34,587 nt of DNA, taken from a virus. Positions 7,314 to 34,587 of the stretch are shown here, in pieces. The stretch lies in IMG/VR virus record IMGVR_UViG_3300030060_004779, positions 1 through 34,587 of that record, one strand, 5' to 3'. Under the pieces are notes generated by a model. The model saw nothing but the letters and a program-made list of their open reading frames with translations. It searched no databases and had not been told where the DNA came from. The position numbers and the translations under genes were made by a program. Position 1 is the first letter of the stretch, and every line of letters begins with the position of its first letter.

Positions 7314-7401
7314 TTATAACCCAACATAATATAACTTACGCAATAGGAAACATACAAGATATTGTGTGTTTGCAACAAAAAAAACTATATATGGAGGCAG
7401 T
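7314..7401. promoter_or_regulatory. Divergent gap between terL and scaffold
   Basis: Both flanking operons start here, so at least one promoter pair is expected. On the minus strand TTGTAT (7352-7357) and TATATT (7328-7333), 18 bases apart, are a weak candidate but would leave only about 8 bases of leader. No convincing rightward -35/-10 pair fits, so late genes may need a phage activator or be reached by read-through. Confidence 0.3.
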
Positions 7402-19393: not shown

Positions 19394-21281
19394 AATTACA
19401 GTAAAATTTGAAGCTCAAGGGGCTAGTTCTTTAAAAAGAGCTATAGATCAATTAGCTAATGCGCAAAGAAAATTAGAAAAGGGAACTGGTAAGTATGAAG
19501 CTTCTCTAAATGATTTAAATAAGCAGACAAGTAAAACTTCTAAGGGCTTATTTGATATAAGCAACAAAGGTAGGTTAGTAGAAAATAGTTTTGCGACTAT
19601 TCGTTCTAAGTTATTACTTGCTTCTTTCGCATTTAGCCTTGTAAATGCCAGTGTATTAAAACTTGGTAGAGCTTATGGAGAACAAGAGCAAGCCGAGAAA
19701 AGACTAGAAGGTTTAGTTGGGTCATCTGTAGATTCTTTAAAAGCCAAAGCATCTGCATTACAAGAAACAACAAGATTTGGAGATGAGCAAACATTAGGGG
19801 CGATGAGCCTAGTATCTGCTTACACCTCAGAGCAAGCTGCGATATCTCAACTAACAGAAGCAGCAATGGATTTAGCTACAGTAAAAGGTATGGATTTAAA
19901 TACTGCTACTGATATGCTTGCAAAAAGTGTATTTTCTTCAACAAACTCAATGTCAAGATATGGAGTTGAGATTGAAGGTGCAGCAGGCTCAGGAGCTAGA
20001 TTAAATAGTGCATTAAAAGCGATATCTACACAAATGGGTGGAGCATCAGAAAGAGATGCACAAACTCTTCTTGGTGCTATGGATCAGATGAACAATGCAG
20101 TTGGGGATTTAGCTGAGAGGATGGGTAAGATATTAGCACCTGTAATAATCTCTGTTGCTAATGCAACCAAAGAATTTGCAAACAATATAGATGCAGAGGA
20201 AATAAAGTCTTATGCGACTGCCATCGGAATAGCAGGAACAGCATATCTTTCCTATACAACTGCTATAAACTTAGCCACAAAAGGAACTACACTTTTTACA
20301 AGAGCAACTAAAAAGAATCTCGTTATTCTTGGAGCGACATTTGTAATCGCAGAATTAATAGATATGACAGACTTATTTGCAGACTCAACGAAAGATGTTG
20401 CAGATGAGCTAGATAACTTAAATAAAAAACTAGAAGACAATAGAGATTTAAATAAAGATAAAATAGATGATCAGTTAAAAATTTTTGACAATGACACTAA
20501 AAAAGCGTTGCTTGATGCAAGACTTGACGCATTAAATAAAATAAAACTTGAAACTGATAAAAAACAACTTGAATCAGAAATGAAGCTAAGAGAGGTTACC
20601 TTGGCTCATTCAGAAGCGCAAGAGGAGCATAATAGATTAAAAGAAAGAGAACTTCTCATGACTGCTGAACAAATTACAGCTGCAGATCATGAGATAAAAA
20701 AGAAAGAGGCGCTTATAAAAATTGATGAATTATTTATACAGAAAGGCATTGAAGAAGTAAAAGTTCAAGAAAGAAAGAAGAAAGCATTTACAGATTTAGC
20801 CAATCAAGGGATAAAAGATTCTTTGAGGCTAGCTAAAGAATTTGCAAAAAATGAGAAACAGCAAAAAGCAATCGCCTTTGCTGGTGCGATGGTTGATGTT
20901 ATTGCTGCTTCTATAGCTACTTTTAGAAAAGTTTCAGAAATATCATTGCCCCCAGTGCCTCAAATTGCTGCTGGAATACAACTTGGGATAGGAACAATAA
21001 TGGCAGCTAAAATAAATCAATTTGAACAAGGTGGACTTGTTGGTGGCAGAAGACATAGCCAAGGAGGCACAATTATAGAGGCAGAGCGTGGAGAGTATGT
21101 TATGAGCCGAAATGCTGTAGATTCTATTGGTGTTGATAATTTAGATGCTATGAATGAAGGTGGCGCTGGGACATCAATCGTAATAAACAATCCTATAATT
21201 TCTTCTGAATTTGTAGAAACAGAATTACCTGAGCTAATTGCAGAGGCAGTTAGAAAAGGTGCAGACTTTGGGATGTCATGA
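19383..21281 (+). CDS. Tape measure protein, 632 aa
   Basis: Long helical protein setting tail length. It has an N-terminal coiled region (SSLKRAIDQLANAQRKLEKGTG), a hydrophobic segment (LLLASFAFSLVNASVLKLG), a GMDLNTATDMLAKSVFSSTNS block seen in tape measures, a hydrophobic part near 280-320, a charged coiled coil (about 335-490), and a C-terminal end with FEQGGLVGGRRHSQGG and ERGEYVMSRNAVDSIG, a signature I know from phage tape measures. At roughly 0.15 nm per residue (established rule) the tail would be about 95 nm. The stop overlaps the next start (ATGA). Confidence 0.88.
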   Translation: MSNKITVKFEAQGASSLKRAIDQLANAQRKLEKGTGKYEASLNDLNKQTSKTSKGLFDISNKGRLVENSFATIRSKLLLASFAFSLVNASVLKLGRAYGEQEQAEKRLEGLVGSSVDSLKAKASALQETTRFGDEQTLGAMSLVSAYTSEQAAISQLTEAAMDLATVKGMDLNTATDMLAKSVFSSTNSMSRYGVEIEGAAGSGARLNSALKAISTQMGGASERDAQTLLGAMDQMNNAVGDLAERMGKILAPVIISVANATKEFANNIDAEEIKSYATAIGIAGTAYLSYTTAINLATKGTTLFTRATKKNLVILGATFVIAELIDMTDLFADSTKDVADELDNLNKKLEDNRDLNKDKIDDQLKIFDNDTKKALLDARLDALNKIKLETDKKQLESEMKLREVTLAHSEAQEEHNRLKERELLMTAEQITAADHEIKKKEALIKIDELFIQKGIEEVKVQERKKKAFTDLANQGIKDSLRLAKEFAKNEKQQKAIAFAGAMVDVIAASIATFRKVSEISLPPVPQIAAGIQLGIGTIMAAKINQFEQGGLVGGRRHSQGGTIIEAERGEYVMSRNAVDSIGVDNLDAMNEGGAGTSIVINNPIISSEFVETELPELIAEAVRKGADFGMS

Positions 21282-24200
21282 TAGATTTAAATTCTAATTT
21301 TAATTTAATAGATGATGTAGATAATTTTGAATTTTATGTTATAATTAATGCCCCTGTAACAATAAGACTATCTACTAAACAAGGGATGTTTGATGGACAA
21401 TACTACAGAGATTTAGATTTAAATATAGGCTCGCTGAAAGAAAGTATTGACTTCAAGTCTAAAAAACTAAAAATGTCCAGTACTACTATAAGCGTAAGTA
21501 ATCATGCTGTAGATGGAGTTAGATTTATAGACTATACTAGAAATGGAATATTAAATGCTGACGTAGGTATATATATTGCAACTCCAAATATTACAAGTAT
21601 TTCTGATTTAATTTCAATAGCAAACCTAAGCGTAACAAGAATAAATGTTGCTTCTGGTCGAGTTTCCCTACAATGTGATGAAAAACTATCAGAATCTTTA
21701 GAGTCTGAACTTCCAAGAAAAGAATATACTTTATTTTCTGAAGACAATACTGGCGCTTATCTTGACGTAACAACTAAGGAAGTTTATAATGATACAAGAG
21801 TGCCAATTTTATATGGACATCTACAGGAAGCGCCTGCGATATCATTTATAGACAGTAATAATAAAATTAAAGTTATTGCAGATAAGGCTTATTTTGATGG
21901 ATATGATATTGCTGGAATAAAAACAATGCCATCTGTTTATGATGTTCCTGACTTAGGCCCTTATGTAGGGGATGATTACTTAGGAGTCAAAGTAACTCAA
22001 CTTGTTGACCAAGATATACTAACTGTTAAACTAGGAGATGGTGGCGCTAGAGTTTACAGACAAATACCTAGACAATCAAATGACAGAATACTAAGAAGTC
22101 CATTTGACAGGCAATTTGATATTTACAATAACTATATAGAATTTTACACTGAAACTTTAGATGGTCTCAGATCTTCACAATATTTAAACCAAGGCTCTCT
22201 ATTGGTTGGCGAGCTGTCAAAATTAAGAAATGCTACAATACATCATAATTTTTATACTGTTGATACTACTGGCGACTCAGATAATAATTATGGAAGATTT
22301 AATTTAGGGCAAGAGATAAACCCTATAGATTTTTCTGGTACAGATATATTTACAAATACTCATGTTAGATGGGGAGATTACACGAATGCTTTCGATAGTG
22401 GCCCGAATAATATAAATTTTTCTCAACAGGTAGTTGGAAACCACGAAGTTAATATATTTTTAGAAGGTGCTGGTGGAAATCACAAGGTTATAAGCAATCC
22501 TTGCATAAATTTTGAATTTGAAGAAATGCAGTGCGACTCTGATGTTTATGTAGATAATAGAGGGATTGAAGCTCCTTCTGACCACAATTTAATAACTTTT
22601 GCTAAGGTACATCATGGCCAAGAGCAAGGACAATACGATGATTTTTATGGACTTAGACCAAAACTAGCTTGGTGTTTTTTCCCTGGTCAAGGCGATCAAG
22701 ATTTTGGTAATGCTATTGATTTTACTACTAACGACACAGAACTAGAAAATCATTTTGAAGAGGGGCAAATTCAATCTGAAAATCCTATAGGGTTTGTTTC
22801 CCAGGTTATAGGTGGTGCGACAGCAGATTTTGATGGCGTAGATGATGAAGAAAATACTTATGATGGGCTAGAAGATAAAGATTATTACTATGATGCTCAA
22901 AAAGTCCCATCTAGATTAGCCCCAATGCAATTAGTGTCAACAAGAAATTATAAAGCTAGTGGGACTATAGCTCATAACAGTGACCCTTTTGAAGCCGAAC
23001 CTATATTAGAGTATAGACATCCTTTTAATCATCCAATAAATAATGAAAGCGACAAAGAAAGAAATCAATGGAGAAATAGAAGTGGATGGGTTTCTTCTTA
23101 CTCTATGCACGATACAAATTCAGTTCTTTTAAATTTCGTTCCTTACAATGGATATAATGATAATAATTACGATTCTGCTTACGACTTAGGATATATAAAA
23201 ATGGATTTCTATGCAGATTTCTCAGGAATGTTAATGAGAAGGACATGGTATCAAAAAAATGCCCTAAATAATAAATTCTTTTTAAATGCAAAAGGTAGAT
23301 ATGAAGGCTATGTGCAAAATGATGACAATAGAATCTGGTCTATAACTGATAGTCCTTTAATTGTAATATCGAATAATAAAAGGCCACCATCAAGTGAAGA
23401 CGATGCTGATTTAAGAAGCTCAGTAACCTCGCAAGATGATTTTCTATTAAGGAATGTTCTTGATTATATTGGAAATAAAAAATTAAAACATAATTTCCAA
23501 GATGGATTGTATTCAGAGGTAATGTTAAAAGTAAATTGCAACCCAGAAGATACTGTTGCAGTCAGTCAAGATTACGATAGTCTATCTGAATCTGGGATGG
23601 AAGACGAAACTTTTTATATTTTTGACTTAGATATGACTCAATTTCATGATACTGTAGAGATAGGCGAGCTTGTTGTATATCCATTTCAAATAAGTGGAAC
23701 TTTGTTTAGGCAAGATAGCCCCTATTATGAATATAATGATGAATATACAGATATATCTGAAGGCATATATTTAAATTGTAGGAATATTAGTTTGGTTTAT
23801 TGCCTTAAAAATACAGATTCAAATGGGAATATCACCTCAATAGAAGAAACAGATGAAATTATAAATTTTAAAGATTACTCTACAGATGACGAAGAGTATA
23901 CTACTTTAGCTTTAAAAAGTGAAAATATAAGCGAAGCAAAAAAAATAATAAGACAGCCTAAAAAAGTAATTTCTCATCTATTAGATAAAGAGTTTAATAG
24001 GCCTTCAAATTACACTCAAGTTATAAATGTAGATGATATTGATTATAAACTAGACTTTTCAATAGATACTCCCATAAGAACAGCAGATTTAATGCAAGAA
24101 ATATGTCAAAGCTCAAATTTCTTTTTTAAAAGTAGACTAAAAGACTCTAAGCCTTGTATGATTGGATTAAAAGCGACTTATTCTGATGGAGATGTAAATA

Positions 24201-26581
24201 AAACAATCTATACTGATTATATACAATCTTATAAGTTTACAAAAACAAAAATAGAAGATTTGGCTTTAAAATGTAGGGTCAAGTATGGATATGATTATAT
24301 AACAGAAGAATATAAAAATGTTACAGACGAAATGGGATACTTTAATGGAGATGTTACAGCTATAGCGCTTGCAAGAAATCATTATGGATTAGGGGCAAAT
24401 GACTTTCAAAGTGAGGATTACCTTTTAGAACATGAATCAAAATATATACAAGATCACAATACAGCGATTACTTTAAGAGACCATTTATTTCAATTACATA
24501 AAAATCAACACGTTATTGTAAATTTTAAAATCAATTTATCGCAAGGTTTTAATCTTGAATCAGGTGATATAATAAACTTTGATAGTATTTCTGAGGGAAA
24601 TTACGATGATTTCTTTTCTCCTTTTGGCGCAAGTATTAAGTCTCCATATTATATTCTTACTAGTATAGGTGAATCTGGGCAAATAGCCCTACCTTACTTT
24701 ATGATTACAGATATAATAAAGACGATGGATAGTGTTACTATTACAGCTATACAATTACATACTTTAGGTGATGGCGAAATAATAGATGATGGCGACCAAG
24801 AAGAAGAAGAAGAAGATCAAGATGAAGATGGAGATGGAACTGATCCTGGTGATGATACTGGTGATGACACTGGTGATGATACTGAGGAAGAAGAGGAGGA
24901 AGAGGAAGAAGAAGAGGAGGAAGAGGAAGAAGAAGAGGAAGAAGAAGAGCCATTGCCAGAATATACACTAGGGGATTTAAATAGTGATGGAAATGCCTAT
25001 ACAGTATTAGATTATTTAATATTATATGACCATGTAAATGGCACGAATTATACTGGAATTACGCTAGATGAAGCAGGTTTATTAGCAGCTAATCTCAGTG
25101 GAGATGAATATGGATTTGTAAACAATGAAGATCTTGCTATATTTAATTTTGATTACATATACAACGCAGGTGGTACATTTAAATCCACTGGAGATTATGA
25201 CAAAGATGGATATGTCCTAGAAAATGACTTGGAAGTAGCCCAAAGTATTGCCAACCAAGACCAAGAAGCTATTGAAAATTTAACTTTTGAGCAAATAGCT
25301 ATTGGAGATCTTAATAATAGTGGAATGATAACGCAAGAGGATGTAGATTTAATGGAAGTATTATATCCTCCAAGCCCAGTAGAGACTTATCTAGGTAATG
25401 TTATATTTAATTATAATTTAATAGGTGCTGGGCCATACTCAATAACGTATGATTCAATATCTAAAGAAATACAGATAGAAGTAGTTGCTACTGACACTTC
25501 TGCGCCACTTCAAAGTGGGGGGCTTCAGTCGGTAGGGGATTATTTACAGCAGCTAGAAGACTCAAACCAAACTTTAGTTGGAACTATTGTAACTTTCCAA
25601 CCATTTTTATCTGGCGCTCTTTTACACCCAGAATATTGGGATTGGATTGGAGCAGGTGGAGACTATGAAATTTTAAGAATAGAAGATAGTACTTTTATGG
25701 CTTTTGAAACTAAAGTAATTGTTCTTGATGCAAGCGTTGAGTCTTTTACTTATAATGATTTGCCAAATATTGGAGATGGATATCATGCGCCTAATTTAGC
25801 AAACTTTGAGCTTCATGGAACCCCAGTGTCAACAGGAGATGACGATACAGATGATGATACAGATGATGATACAGATGATGATGCTAGTGATGATCCTTAC
25901 GTATACGTAATGGGCCTCAAGCATACTCCTTCATTCTTTACAGAAAACGACCAATATTTGCCAGGTGCCAACATATACTGGACAGATAAAAGAAGTTTTA
26001 TTTCTAGAAATAGTGGTGCTAATACATTTCAAATTTATACTAGCATGAGTGGAAATTTTATGATGACAGGAGATGATTATGTGGTTGAGGGGCTGCAAAA
26101 CTCCAATGCATTTAATTTTCATGATTTGGTGTCAAGCAGCTCTGACCCATATCACTTTATTACAGATTGGGTACATAAAATAAGAGTTCAGATTAGAGAA
26201 GAATTTATTGATAATTTAGAAGAATTGCCTGCTGGATTAGAAGAACAAGTGAATACTTTTGATGGATTTTTTGGCGATTTATATCAAGAAAATTACAATG
26301 TTTATACAGGCTACTCTTCATTTCATGGCTATATGTATAAAATGTTTAAATTAAAAGATTTAAAAGATAAGTATGGCAATGATGTTTCTTATATTTATAC
26401 TAGTGGTGAAAATTTCCCAATAACTTTAACTAAGAACGTAGGAACAATTGAAGAAGAATCATTTGTCTTTAGACCGAACCCATCAATTCCAAGGTTTACG
26501 TTAGATTATTTTAGTTCGTCAGATTTGAAATATATTGATATTAACATTTACGCCATTCCAAACGAAGAGGACATGGAATAG
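21278..26581 (+). CDS. Giant tail-tip protein with dockerin-like insert, 1767 aa
   Basis: Follows the tape measure and is the largest protein, so it is the central tail-tip or host-recognition component. Residues 1-200 (with VPILYGHLQEAP) resemble the N-terminal hub of marine-phage tip proteins. About 985-1165 (TADLMQEICQSSNFFFKS, DLALKCRVKYGYDY) is a further hub-like region. Residues 1170-1224 are an acidic linker ending in 22 Glu. Residues 1231-1360 hold EF-hand/dockerin-like loops, clearest at D1306-D1317 and D1344-D1355, plus D1233 with an extra residue and a degenerate one near 1272. A second acidic linker (about 1521-1539, DDDT repeats) precedes the last 230 residues. Acidic linkers and loops suggest calcium binding. 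No enzyme motif was seen. Confidence 0.75.
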   Translation: MIDLNSNFNLIDDVDNFEFYVIINAPVTIRLSTKQGMFDGQYYRDLDLNIGSLKESIDFKSKKLKMSSTTISVSNHAVDGVRFIDYTRNGILNADVGIYIATPNITSISDLISIANLSVTRINVASGRVSLQCDEKLSESLESELPRKEYTLFSEDNTGAYLDVTTKEVYNDTRVPILYGHLQEAPAISFIDSNNKIKVIADKAYFDGYDIAGIKTMPSVYDVPDLGPYVGDDYLGVKVTQLVDQDILTVKLGDGGARVYRQIPRQSNDRILRSPFDRQFDIYNNYIEFYTETLDGLRSSQYLNQGSLLVGELSKLRNATIHHNFYTVDTTGDSDNNYGRFNLGQEINPIDFSGTDIFTNTHVRWGDYTNAFDSGPNNINFSQQVVGNHEVNIFLEGAGGNHKVISNPCINFEFEEMQCDSDVYVDNRGIEAPSDHNLITFAKVHHGQEQGQYDDFYGLRPKLAWCFFPGQGDQDFGNAIDFTTNDTELENHFEEGQIQSENPIGFVSQVIGGATADFDGVDDEENTYDGLEDKDYYYDAQKVPSRLAPMQLVSTRNYKASGTIAHNSDPFEAEPILEYRHPFNHPINNESDKERNQWRNRSGWVSSYSMHDTNSVLLNFVPYNGYNDNNYDSAYDLGYIKMDFYADFSGMLMRRTWYQKNALNNKFFLNAKGRYEGYVQNDDNRIWSITDSPLIVISNNKRPPSSEDDADLRSSVTSQDDFLLRNVLDYIGNKKLKHNFQDGLYSEVMLKVNCNPEDTVAVSQDYDSLSESGMEDETFYIFDLDMTQFHDTVEIGELVVYPFQISGTLFRQDSPYYEYNDEYTDISEGIYLNCRNISLVYCLKNTDSNGNITSIEETDEIINFKDYSTDDEEYTTLALKSENISEAKKIIRQPKKVISHLLDKEFNRPSNYTQVINVDDIDYKLDFSIDTPIRTADLMQEICQSSNFFFKSRLKDSKPCMIGLKATYSDGDVNKTIYTDYIQSYKFTKTKIEDLALKCRVKYGYDYITEEYKNVTDEMGYFNGDVTAIALARNHYGLGANDFQSEDYLLEHESKYIQDHNTAITLRDHLFQLHKNQHVIVNFKINLSQGFNLESGDIINFDSISEGNYDDFFSPFGASIKSPYYILTSIGESGQIALPYFMITDIIKTMDSVTITAIQLHTLGDGEIIDDGDQEEEEEDQDEDGDGTDPGDDTGDDTGDDTEEEEEEEEEEEEEEEEEEEEEEPLPEYTLGDLNSDGNAYTVLDYLILYDHVNGTNYTGITLDEAGLLAANLSGDEYGFVNNEDLAIFNFDYIYNAGGTFKSTGDYDKDGYVLENDLEVAQSIANQDQEAIENLTFEQIAIGDLNNSGMITQEDVDLMEVLYPPSPVETYLGNVIFNYNLIGAGPYSITYDSISKEIQIEVVATDTSAPLQSGGLQSVGDYLQQLEDSNQTLVGTIVTFQPFLSGALLHPEYWDWIGAGGDYEILRIEDSTFMAFETKVIVLDASVESFTYNDLPNIGDGYHAPNLANFELHGTPVSTGDDDTDDDTDDDTDDDASDDPYVYVMGLKHTPSFFTENDQYLPGANIYWTDKRSFISRNSGANTFQIYTSMSGNFMMTGDDYVVEGLQNSNAFNFHDLVSSSSDPYHFITDWVHKIRVQIREEFIDNLEELPAGLEEQVNTFDGFFGDLYQENYNVYTGYSSFHGYMYKMFKLKDLKDKYGNDVSYIYTSGENFPITLTKNVGTIEEESFVFRPNPSIPRFTLDYFSSSDLKYIDINIYAIPNEEDME
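24884..24949 (+). repeat. GAR tract coding for 22 glutamates
   Basis: A pure purine tract of GAA/GAG codons. A 21-base unit (GAG GAG GAA GAG GAA GAA GAA) occurs twice in direct tandem, followed by a partial third copy, so slippage or duplication has lengthened it. Its length may vary between relatives. Confidence 0.8.
25838..25894 (+). repeat. 12-base tandem repeat coding DDDT units
   Basis: GATGATGATACA-type units repeat about three times after a first GATGACGATACA, giving a second acidic linker in the tail-tip protein. With the tract at 24884 it brackets a module of about 300 residues. Confidence 0.75.
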
Positions 26582-31689: not shown

Positions 31690-32169
31690 TTATCCTTTGT
31701 TTAATGTAAACTTTGTTTCAAATTCTTTTTTAAATCGTGGCTTTGGTGCATCTCCTTTAGTGCTAGAGTTGTGCCACTTCCATAAATCATAGCAATTCTT
31801 TACCAAATCATAATCAATATTATAATATTTAAGAGTATAGGTCGGTGCTTTAATCCAAGTGCTTTTAAGATGCAAACACGCAACTTTTGTTATTGGATAC
31901 TTTGGAAATAATTTATTCCATATCATTGCATACGCTGATAACTGAATTTGATGTACAGGGTAATTCAAGCCTGTTTTATAATCAACTAAAGTTATGTCAG
32001 ACTTATTTGTCTTTGGATTTGTTATTAAGCCTACAAAATCAGCAGTACCACAAAAAGGTATATCTTTGTGATGTAGCTGAATTTCTGATGCAAATGCGAT
32101 AGGTTTATAATCCTCCCAAAACTTCATAAAACCCATTAGTCTTTTATTAATCTGATTACTTGGTATCAT
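31690..32169 (-). CDS. RecB-like (Cas4/AddB) nuclease, C-terminal half, 159 aa
   Basis: Contains core motifs of the RecB nuclease family: E29 in FASEIQ, GTAD (D44), LVDYKTG (D63, K65) and the QxxxY motif QLSAY (Q76, Y80). What is missing is the N-terminal motif I His, which is found in the separate ORF 32397-32762. The start has a ribosome site AAGGAT about 9 bases upstream. An in-frame TAA just upstream closes the frame, so it is not part of one long gene. It overlaps the inserted 83-residue ORF by 14 bases. Confidence 0.75.
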   Translation of the reverse strand: MIPSNQINKRLMGFMKFWEDYKPIAFASEIQLHHKDIPFCGTADFVGLITNPKTNKSDITLVDYKTGLNYPVHQIQLSAYAMIWNKLFPKYPITKVACLHLKSTWIKAPTYTLKYYNIDYDLVKNCYDLWKWHNSSTKGDAPKPRFKKEFETKFTLNKG

Positions 32170-32407
32170 GTGGCAGTATCCTTATCCCTTTATGTGTTAT
32201 ATAGTATAATTTAGTAAAAAAGTTAACTGGTCGCTTATCAAGTCTTCCCATAACAAATCCAGGATCATCGCAATCGATAACATCCTCTACAAATTCTACT
32301 GCATATTTTTTTGTTTTTTGTGTATATGGTCTTAACGTATTTTCTAGCTCTTTTTTCTTAGCCATAAAATTTCGATAGTTAGAATATATAAGTGTATTAT
32401 TCTTCAT
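32156..32407 (-). CDS. Unknown 83-aa ORF between the nuclease halves
   Basis: Starts at ATG 32407 within the end of the N-half gene (11-base overlap) and ends within the start of the C-half gene (14-base overlap). The product, MKNNTLIYSNYRNFMAKKKE onward, is basic at the N-terminus, has YAVEFVEDVIDCDDPGF in the middle and ends KGIRILPHDTK. No family is recognised and no strong ribosome site is seen. It is either an insertion into an ancestral nuclease gene or an intended partner translated by coupling. Confidence 0.55.
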   Translation of the reverse strand: MKNNTLIYSNYRNFMAKKKELENTLRPYTQKTKKYAVEFVEDVIDCDDPGFVMGRLDKRPVNFFTKLYYITHKGIRILPHDTK

Positions 32408-32762
32408 CAGAATTGTACCCAAAATTATAATGCTTACCATTGTAGTTAAAGCCTTGACGTATATCAATATCCTCGCCTTCAACAAGCATATCAATATAAG
32501 CGTGGACTATTGTACCAATTAAAGCTTTCTCATCTCTAATCTTAATTGCATCGAATCCATTAGTCATTAGCCAATTATCATAATGTTCACCCTTAGAAAC
32601 AATAGAATCAAAACTCGTAACTGAAATATAATACTTACCCTTAGATTCGTACCATCTACCATTAGATAGATCGTGTCGCTTCAAATCCACGTTCTCATTA
32701 TAATTCTTAACGATTGTTTTAATGTTCTCTGGTTTTCTCTTGGTATTCTTCTTCTGTGTCAT
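32397..32762 (-). CDS. RecB-like nuclease, N-terminal half, 121 aa
   Basis: ISVTSFDSIVSKGEHYDNWL and ALIGTIVHAYIDMLVEGE are typical N-terminal blocks of RecB/Cas4-type exonucleases, with the motif I His at position 87. The protein ends at residue 121 (GYNSDEE) before the GTAD and DYK catalytic motifs, which are in the next-but-one gene. Alone it cannot be active. Together the two halves have the right order and length (about 280 residues). Start overlaps the XRE gene by 44 bases. Confidence 0.7.
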   Translation of the reverse strand: MTQKKNTKRKPENIKTIVKNYNENVDLKRHDLSNGRWYESKGKYYISVTSFDSIVSKGEHYDNWLMTNGFDAIKIRDEKALIGTIVHAYIDMLVEGEDIDIRQGFNYNGKHYNFGYNSDEE

Positions 32763-32958
32763 AAAAATCCCTTAGTTTACAATGACATAACCTTGCTATA
32801 TGCTTTAATGTTTCGTGCGAAGGATTACGTCTTCCAGTACAATAAAAGGTTAATGTTATTCGGTGAAAGCCTAGCTTATCTGCTATAAACTTAGATTTAA
32901 GCCCAGACTCTTTTATCTTTTCTTTTAGCTTTGTATAATTAAAATGTTTTAGTTTCAT
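32719..32958 (-). CDS. XRE-family (Cro/CI-like) regulator, 79 aa
   Basis: A single helix-turn-helix domain: LKEKIKESGLKSKFIADKLGFHRITLTFYCTGRR is followed by NPSHETLKHIARLCHC. Length and layout match small Cro-type repressors or transcription activators. It has no C-terminal dimerisation/protease domain, so it is not a full CI. It may bind the TGACA-T-TGTCA dyad at 2844-2854 or sites near its own start, but that is untested. It lies at the head of the recombination genes, just after the folded non-coding region. Confidence 0.8.
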   Translation of the reverse strand: MKLKHFNYTKLKEKIKESGLKSKFIADKLGFHRITLTFYCTGRRNPSHETLKHIARLCHCKLRDFYDTEEEYQEKTREH

Positions 32959-32973
32959 GCTTCAAATATAAAA

Positions 32974-33078
32974 TTAAATGTTTACCAAATGCAAACAAAA
33001 AATATAACAAACTAGGAATTCAGACGAGAAATATAATGAAATATCAAAATGCACTTGGAAAATATAATAGATTATCAT
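32974..33078 (-). CDS. Possible hydrophobic micro-protein, 34 aa
   Basis: A short frame with ATG 33078 preceded by AAGGG (11 bases), product beginning MIIYYIFQVHFDISLYF and ending CLHLVNI. It is mostly hydrophobic and AT-rich, so it could be chance in this composition. Three AATATAAY motifs about 30 bases apart overlap the same DNA. It is listed because similar tiny membrane peptides with better signals lie upstream. Confidence 0.25.
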   Translation of the reverse strand: MIIYYIFQVHFDISLYFSSEFLVCYIFCLHLVNI

Positions 33079-33137
33079 ATTTTATAAACCCTTATGGTTT
33101 GACAACTATGTACTTTTTGCATAAGGTTATTATAAAT

Positions 33138-33385
33138 GTGGTTACAAAAAGGGATTTCAGTATAGCCACAATCAAAGACGAACTCTAAACTTGATCTGAT
33201 AGGTAGCTTACTACCGAAAATGGAATTAGAGCGAAAATTATAGTAAGATTTATAATTTTTAGGCATATCCGAAGCGATAACTCAAGGGGATAGATAAGCC
33301 TAGAATCCACCCTAGCTTTATAATTAGGCTAGGGATAGGGATTCCTCTAGGCAAAACTCTTAGCTCTAATCTAAGGGGATAGATA
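33138..33385. ncRNA. Densely folded non-coding region (ncRNA or origin candidate)
   Basis: Within the 449-base gap 32959-33407 lie consecutive stems: GTGGTTA/TAGCCAC (33138-33144, 33163-33169, one G-U); CTCTAA/TTAGAG (33183-33188, 33226-33231) enclosing GGTAG-CTTA-CTACC (33202-33215); GCCTAGA/TCTAGGC (33298-33304, 33346-33352) enclosing ATCC/GGAT and CCCTAGC/GCTAGGG (33310-33316, 33328-33334); and CTTAG/CTAAG (33359-33375). Two direct copies of AAGGGGATAGATA (33284-33296, 33373-33385) bracket the long hairpin. No tRNA or known riboswitch fits. It is either a structured RNA or a replication origin with iterons. The strand is undetermined. Confidence 0.55.
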
Positions 33386-33407
33386 TAAAAGCAAGTTATA
33401 ATTATAA

Positions 33408-33539
33408 TTAATCCTCCTCTTTATTACATTGTTTATATAAATAATCATTACACCCTTCACACGCTATCTCTTGACCTAAATCCAAGTCAATAATATAATA
33501 GGTGTATAAATTTTCACGATCGCAGTAAGTGCATTCCAT
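33408..33539 (-). CDS. Cys-rich micro-protein, 43 aa
   Basis: CTYC at residues 3-6 and CEGC at 27-30 make a zinc-ribbon pattern, in the sequence MECTYCDRENLYTYY onward, ending KQCNKEED. GGGAGGG is about 7 bases before the ATG, and the start shares a base with the stop of the preceding gene (TAATG). Function unknown. Similar Cys-pair micro-proteins recur in this early region. Confidence 0.7.
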   Translation of the reverse strand: MECTYCDRENLYTYYIIDLDLGQEIACEGCNDYLYKQCNKEED

Positions 33540-34150: not shown

Positions 34151-34246
34151 TTATAATCCAAGTGAAAAATATAACAAGATCAGAATCCAAGCTGAAAATA
34201 TAATCAGAATGGAGATTAAAATTATAATTTCTATAAAATCTTTCAT
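34151..34246 (-). CDS. Single-span membrane micro-peptide, 31 aa
   Basis: MKDFIEIIILISILIIFSAW onward is one hydrophobic span almost to the end (ILILLYFSLGL), with three charges at the N-terminus. AAGGG lies 5 bases before the ATG. The core LIIFSAWILILLYF closely resembles LIIFIVWIILILF of the next peptide (34310-34393), so the two are probably duplicates. Possible roles are a toxin, superinfection exclusion or membrane modulator. Confidence 0.5.
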   Translation of the reverse strand: MKDFIEIIILISILIIFSAWILILLYFSLGL

Positions 34247-34309
34247 TTTTTCCCTTGTTTTAAAAATTAAGTTTATATTTATAATTGAGGTTAAAAATAT
34301 AATCCTAGC

Positions 34310-34393
34310 TTATATTTCAAAGTCTGTAAATAATATTAATATTATCCATACTATAAATATAATCAGATGGGTAAATCCTAAAATAATATCCAT
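34310..34393 (-). CDS. Single-span membrane micro-peptide, 27 aa
   Basis: Begins MDIILGFTHLIIFIVW and ends LFTDFEI. It has a good AAGGAG site 9 bases upstream, located inside the end of the 26-residue gene. Similarity to the 31-residue peptide (LIIFxxWI and LILxF) suggests paralogy. Confidence 0.55.
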   Translation of the reverse strand: MDIILGFTHLIIFIVWIILILFTDFEI

Positions 34394-34477: not shown

Positions 34478-34557
34478 TAATTATAACCCTTATATTCTAA
34501 GACTTCGCACGTTTCGCAACGTTCAAAGTTTCTGCTTTTAGCTTCATCAGTTAGAAT
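34477..34557 (-). CDS. C-terminal part of a Cys-pair protein at the right edge
   Basis: An open frame with no ATG: ILTDEAKSRNFERCETCEVL onward, ending EYKGYN, then TAA joined to the next ATG (TAATG). The CETC pair, the coupling and the non-random composition suggest a real protein whose start is lost, either by an in-frame TAA (34558-34560), a rare ATT start, or a base error near the window end. If the window is circular, the same frame upstream passes an ATG at positions 3-1. Confidence 0.35.
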   Translation of the reverse strand: MLTDEAKSRNFERCETCEVLEYKGYN

Positions 34558-34587
34558 TTATTTAATTAAACCTCTTTTTATTTTTTC

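Follow-up and report, generated by a model that had tools for sequence, protein, structure and literature searches.

The question raised by this locus is whether a gene-free stretch lying between a cluster of very small genes and an XRE-type regulator gene, dense in possible stems and repeats, encodes a phage RNA, forms a long leader of the neighbouring operon or marks a replication origin. The window analysed here, an IMG/VR virus record of 34,587 bases, is a nearly complete genome, and in it the two exact copies of AAGGGGATAGATA described in an earlier note were found at 33284-33296 and 33373-33385, 89 bases apart; this is the sole 13-mer recurring within 150 bases in the window, with the exception of two low-complexity stretches at 24.8 and 25.8 kb, both located in one coding gene. 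The long bulged hairpin at 33298-33352 that the repeats were said to bracket was present in the computed fold (P0 below), and the stretch was likewise less AT-rich than its surroundings, with a GC content of 35% vs 21% and 27% in its two flanks. As a single sequence it folds only moderately better than chance (z of -2.9 and -2.8 for the two strands, with 2-3 of 200 shuffles equally good), so the question had to be decided from relatives.

Relatives were gathered through the XRE protein, the exonuclease and the terminase of the window, as well as through DNA patterns from the stretch, and a covariance model together with pattern scans placed the RNA family in more than 35 uncultured phage contigs, which are presumably of marine origin, as read from the sample numbers. 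Among close relatives, the more distant ones retain 50-60% identity in the XRE protein and 77-85% in the DNA of the stretch, indicating that the stretch is the better conserved of the two. The core covariance model detected seven more distant members in loci fetched by terminase alone; the RNA was present in all 10 of the 10 contigs of at least 33 kb fetched in this way, and one copy was observed in each of the 16 records matching model R1. The RNA occurs in two phage types, the terminases of which do not match each other. No match was found by DNA similarity in cultured phages and plasmids, among which close matches were searched; one DNA pattern run against 84,980 sequenced prokaryote species gave 15 matches, all due to chance; and a looser viral scan yielded no further members.

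Compensatory changes among these relatives support a predicted fold of at least nine helices, including two pseudoknots (P3 and P6 against P1/P4) and a loop-loop kiss (P7), in agreement with the dense stems first noticed. The structure as drawn comprises 64 pairs; across ten close relatives 97.5% of the cells were paired, and both-sided changes, most of which sit in P1, P2 and P3, were observed at 21 pairs and in 56 cells vs 14.2 in shuffles, whereas pairing fell to 34-51% when the partners were slid by 1-3 bases as a control. For 28 divergent sequences, strands were sought at set distances from a conserved CCC anchor, and partners were exchanged between phages as the control; these swap tests gave 0/20000 for each of P4, P5, P6 and P7. 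P7 is changed on both sides in the L003 and L104 types (CUUAUUG/CAAUAAG) and reads CUUUUGG/CCAAAAG in others, and P6 connects the P4 loop with the interior of P1. The number of distinct strand pairs among twenty sequences reached 16 for P4, 18 for P5, 17 for P6 and 12 for P0, at nearly constant offsets, in a table that is supporting and not independent as its strands were placed by hand. The covariance analysis proposed in the earlier note thus points to a structured RNA, with pairings kept under compensatory change; homologues keeping the sequence and losing the pairings had been named as the sign of a DNA site only, and the opposite was observed, the pairings staying while the sequence changes. 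The stretch is real, but the interval 33138-33385 first given to it was too short, since the conserved unit covers about 33085-33392 on the + strand, some 300 bases with an undefined 3' end, and the predicted promoter lies at 33055-33083. The features are as follows, with the strand of the RNA as argued below.

32719-32958, - strand: XRE-type regulator gene, divergent neighbour outside the RNA (context).
32988-33074, no strand assigned: 27-bp repeat in three copies spaced about 30 bp, lying between the RNA and XRE and overlapping the predicted -35; repeat seen, putative operator.
33055-33083, + strand: predicted promoter, TTGGAA, 17 bases, TATTTT, transcription predicted to begin near 33090; relatives have closer matches at this position.
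33085-33392, + strand: structured non-coding RNA, conserved unit (homologues, covariation, strand tests).
33090-33126, + strand: hairpin P5, CCUUAUG / CAUAAGG (18 distinct strand pairs in 20 sequences; swap test 0/20000).
33113-33151, + strand: P7, loop-loop kiss of P5 and P4, CUUUUUG 33113-33119 with CAAAAAG 33145-33151 (compensatory change; swap test 0/20000).
33138-33169, + strand: hairpin P4, GUGG / CCAC (16 distinct strand pairs in 20 sequences; swap test 0/20000).
33157-33199, + strand: P6, long-range helix from P4 loop UCAG 33157-33160 to CUGA 33196-33199 (17 distinct strand pairs, constant offsets; swap tests 0/5000 and 0/20000).
33171-33195, + strand: P3, pseudoknot AUCAA 33171-33175 / UUGAU 33191-33195, interlocked with P1 (3/5 pairs changed on both sides; 98-100% paired).
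33182-33232, + strand: P1, ACUCUAA / UUAGAGC, outermost A-C probably unpaired (5/7 pairs changed on both sides).
33202-33215, + strand: hairpin P2, GGUAG / CUACC (4/5 pairs changed on both sides).
33234-33259, + strand: hairpin H (2/9 pairs changed on both sides).
33260-33264, + strand: element b, upstream copy UAGGC, complementary to b' 33298-33302 (swap test 0/5000; L012 alters b together with P0).
33284-33296, + strand: putative recognition segment A, copy 2, AAGGGGAUAGAUA (exact repeat; changes jointly with copy 1).
33298-33352, + strand: hairpin P0, b' GCCUAGA ... UCUAGGC, the latter being the downstream b copy (12 distinct strand pairs; pairs kept 97-99%).
33373-33385, + strand: putative recognition segment A, copy 1, AAGGGGAUAGAUA (exact repeat; changes jointly with copy 2).

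About 40 extra bases were observed between P4 and P5 in L010 (1-183), indicating that this linker tolerates insertions.

The RNA is very probably encoded on the + strand, opposite to the flanking genes. The non-Watson-Crick pairs in P4-P6 comprise 34 C-A and 12 G-U when read on the gene strand, and 34 G-U and 12 C-A on the + strand; the folding energy was lower on the + strand in 28 of 28 sequences, with means of -68.0 vs -55.1 kcal/mol. A sigma70-like promoter on the + strand ends a few bases before P5, with z = 13.0 vs shuffles, a value flattered by permitted positions that were set after a first scan and by the relatedness of the 28 sequences, and z = 0.2 at the corresponding place on the gene strand. 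The -10 box of the window itself is weak (TATTTT), and at the same position TTGACA-18-TATATT was observed in L071 and L073, and TTGCAA-17-TATAAT in L016 and L125. Within clade 1 alone the drawn pairs fit the gene strand slightly better (97.5% vs 95.1%), mostly owing to one invariant terminal pair of P1. An RNA on the gene strand was also considered, as the unconstrained consensus fold showed more covariation there, and was dropped on the wobble count, the energy and the promoter tests. The + strand evidence, including the promoter predicted just before the first helix, indicates that the stretch is probably a stand-alone phage RNA gene, transcribed as a unit of its own, and not an XRE leader; the suggestion of a phage small RNA thus gains support from the covariation and from the promoter predicted at the 5' end. 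No terminator was found at the 3' end, so the RNA may extend further.

The 3' part exhibits a tandem organisation in which P0 is flanked by two copies of a unit b-spacer-A. Strand b' of P0 complements both b copies, and all three vary together (0/5000 in a swap test on 18 sequences with P0 found automatically). The A copies, spaced 65-89 bases apart across the relatives, show a likeness of 11.1/12 within a phage vs 9.2 between phages (0/5000 swaps), and they change jointly even among close relatives, such as L108 with UAUAACCC, L111 with UAUAUCCC and L110 with UAUAAACC (gene-strand reading, both copies each), and likewise differ between L104 and L107. In most fetched loci, some of them partial genomes and the window nearly complete, the A core occurs exactly twice with no further copy or complement, and L104, L112 and L123 contain one further short, chance-like match each. 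As the two A copies change together and almost never recur, directly or as a complement, elsewhere in the fetched phage DNA, they probably bind one fast-evolving partner outside the phage genome; they could instead be protein-binding sites in DNA and not RNA segments. A search for targets of A in the own genome found none in most loci, and only the single chance-like matches in L104, L112 and L123. The A segment of L101 resembles a T3 promoter, and A as a promoter of a T7-type polymerase was likewise set aside, since A occurs only twice per genome and no such polymerase was found in 12 records, although the control genomes were likewise unmatched. In the window, the + strand at 34478-34498 reads ATTATAACCCTTATATT, the sequence that segment A of L101-type RNAs has when read on the gene strand; on the - strand this site falls in the ribosome-binding region of a 26-residue ORF, and the identity is possibly due to chance.

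In the main phage group the RNA holds a constant position at the border between micro-genes and operon. Upstream in the direction of the genes lies the cluster of very small genes, towards which the RNA runs head-on from the other strand, and downstream lies an operon whose first gene is XRE or another and which also encodes an exonuclease and Sak-like or Erf-like annealing proteins; no convincing gene follows the RNA on the + strand. In L104 and L107 the neighbours of the RNA are instead terminase genes, encoding a small subunit and a large subunit from another family, and records of this type show no match to the terminase of the window, while L150 and L151 carry nearly the same RNA beside different next genes. 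This independence from any one neighbouring gene speaks for an RNA acting in trans. Repeats containing AAATATAAT, about 30 bp apart, form groups at 32988-33074 in the gap between XRE and the RNA and at 34152-34368 in the micro-gene region, and are possible XRE operators. The upstream micro-genes differ among relatives right up to the A1 segment, and about 760 extra bases were observed in L002 exactly at 33411-33412, on the micro-gene side of the RNA. L002 also links the window end at 34576 to its start at 1 with about 195 bases between, indicating that the genome is circular or circularly permuted and that the window misses a small piece. Both contig ends of L003/L022 (IMGVR_UViG_3300030450_002812) lie inside the A1-P0 part and overlap over a short length, resembling a circular assembly opened at this repeat.

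None of the 4227 models of Rfam 15 reached the gathering threshold in the window or in four divergent relatives, where matches stayed at chance level, ARAGORN found no tRNA or tmRNA in the window, and no earlier description of the RNA was found in the open-access literature. Within the limits of Rfam and that literature, the family and its architecture match no RNA class testable here, in line with the first impression that no known class fits; a class of structured RNA is established, and its function we infer. Structured RNAs encoded by phages are in themselves nothing new. The P4 CI and P1 c4 RNAs act through short complementary segments, which match within a phage and differ between relatives, and their target is the phage's own transcript; in the present RNA b' matches both b copies, and A has no convincing complement in the fetched DNA. 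The HK022 put RNA, a phage processive antiterminator of about 70 bases and two stem-loops, lies within the transcript it controls and acts, without a phage protein, on the polymerase making it (PMC9378689). The new RNA is similarly a phage-encoded structured RNA tied to an early promoter, but its conserved unit is far longer, at about 300 bases, its nine or more helices include two pseudoknots and a loop-loop kiss, and it is read away from the adjacent operon, whereas put suppresses termination of its own early transcript. Comparative genomics is the main source of knowledge on GOLLD, ROOL and OLE, which are large RNAs of ornate structure (PMC12286853, PMC2864571); the present RNA is ornate and was recognised in the same manner, but is smaller, has no Rfam match and shares no recognised motif with them. 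A protein-coding gene through the RNA was rejected as well, since the conserved bases fall in differing reading frames, and insertions or deletions of one base are frequent. A stop-free frame over 277 bases was observed in about one third of the RNAs (L044, L041, L071, L112, L123 and others), above expectation, with no frame conserved.

Comparison of the relatives shows the position of the predicted promoter and the proposed helices P0-P6 along with the P7 kiss; it also shows that the two A segments change jointly, as do b/b'/b. The explanation that we tentatively prefer, at a little below even chances, is a structured phage RNA some 300 bases long that stands alone and is read from its own sigma70-like promoter on the + strand; probably acting in trans, it would serve as a two-site RNA of the guide, antisense or decoy kind. 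Its transcription would diverge from that of the XRE/recombination operon and proceed head-on towards the micro-genes; its 5' part (P5-P4-P7-P6-P3-P1-P2) may form a rigid scaffold binding a conserved, probably host, protein; and its 3' part may expose both A segments, identical in sequence, to a rapidly evolving partner located outside the genome of the phage. As b' pairs with either b copy, the 3' part might switch between two hairpins during synthesis. The bolder version, a new class of guide RNA combining a conserved pseudoknotted scaffold on a host protein, two copies of a fast-evolving guide that would be aimed at nucleic acid outside the phage genome, such as a host gene, a rival phage or a defence element, and a built-in two-hairpin switch, we consider rather unlikely.

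Among the other explanations, control in cis is one we also give only a minor chance. The nascent RNA would here act on its own polymerase, as the put RNA does (PMC9378689), or on convergent transcription of the micro-genes by antisense or interference, which is consistent with a structured RNA at the transcript start, with its constant position at the border and with a transcript that, lacking a 3' terminator, may continue antisense into the micro-genes; yet no convincing + strand gene lies downstream for antitermination to serve, the RNA with its pseudoknots is far larger than put, and the two identical, fast-changing A segments would be left unexplained. Those segments, which differ between near-identical relatives (L104/L107; L108/L111/L110), and the complementarity of b' to two b copies that change together would suit RNA-based immunity or copy control of the P4 CI or P1 c4 style, in which short pairing segments diverge fast between immunity groups; this appears quite unlikely, as the nearly complete window and most other fetched phage DNA contain no complement of A elsewhere and no integrase was noticed in the window.

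An origin at which the transcript serves as primer and A1/A2 are DNA sites seems very unlikely. The phage encodes recombination proteins, with no polymerase or helicase recognised among its genes, and AT-rich repeats adjoin the RNA; against this, the conserved structure far exceeds the needs of a primer, the GC skew has its extremes at 7339 and 28086 (7.3 and 28.1 kb), where the gene direction changes, and not at the RNA, and the A copies are inconstantly spaced. A occurs only twice, 65-89 bases apart and not in a regularly spaced array, so that the origin with iterons once suggested for this stretch finds no support. The long regulatory leader suggested alongside it, here a 5' leader or riboswitch of the XRE and recombination operon on the gene strand, fares worse still and is highly improbable: the RNA always lies upstream of the operon in the main phage group and the gene strand is a marginally better fit for the pairs of clade 1, but wobble, energy and promoter evidence place the RNA on the + strand, reading away from XRE, several relatives have promoter-like sites between the RNA and the next gene, and different genes follow it in other phages. 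Interlocked pseudoknots are typical of ribozymes, and their presence would fit a self-cleaving ribozyme; with no match to any Rfam ribozyme model, a size above that of most known self-cleaving classes and no role for A1/A2, we attach hardly any probability to it.

New RNA classes featuring several interlocked pseudoknots are seldom found, and phage non-coding RNAs are mostly known from cultured model phages. The RNA was present in every long terminase-fetched contig of one phage group, is shared with an unrelated type and has a predicted promoter, suggesting from comparative data that it is probably important to infection. Two identical segments changing fast and jointly on a conserved scaffold represent a pattern expected when an RNA tracks a changing partner, and the identity of that partner would show the purpose of large phage RNAs, a question common to GOLLD and ROOL; in addition, the family definition makes the RNA searchable in metatranscriptomes.

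Elsewhere in the window, the RecB-like exonuclease (phrog_298) at 31690-32762 on the - strand is split, a short unrelated ORF separating its N half (32397-32762) from its C half (31690-32169); the same split was observed in close relatives, and in L102 and L115 the exonuclease is apparently one intact gene. The + strand at 21278-26581 encodes a protein of 1767 residues that has a long run of glutamates as well as GDLNSDG repeats resembling those of dockerins.
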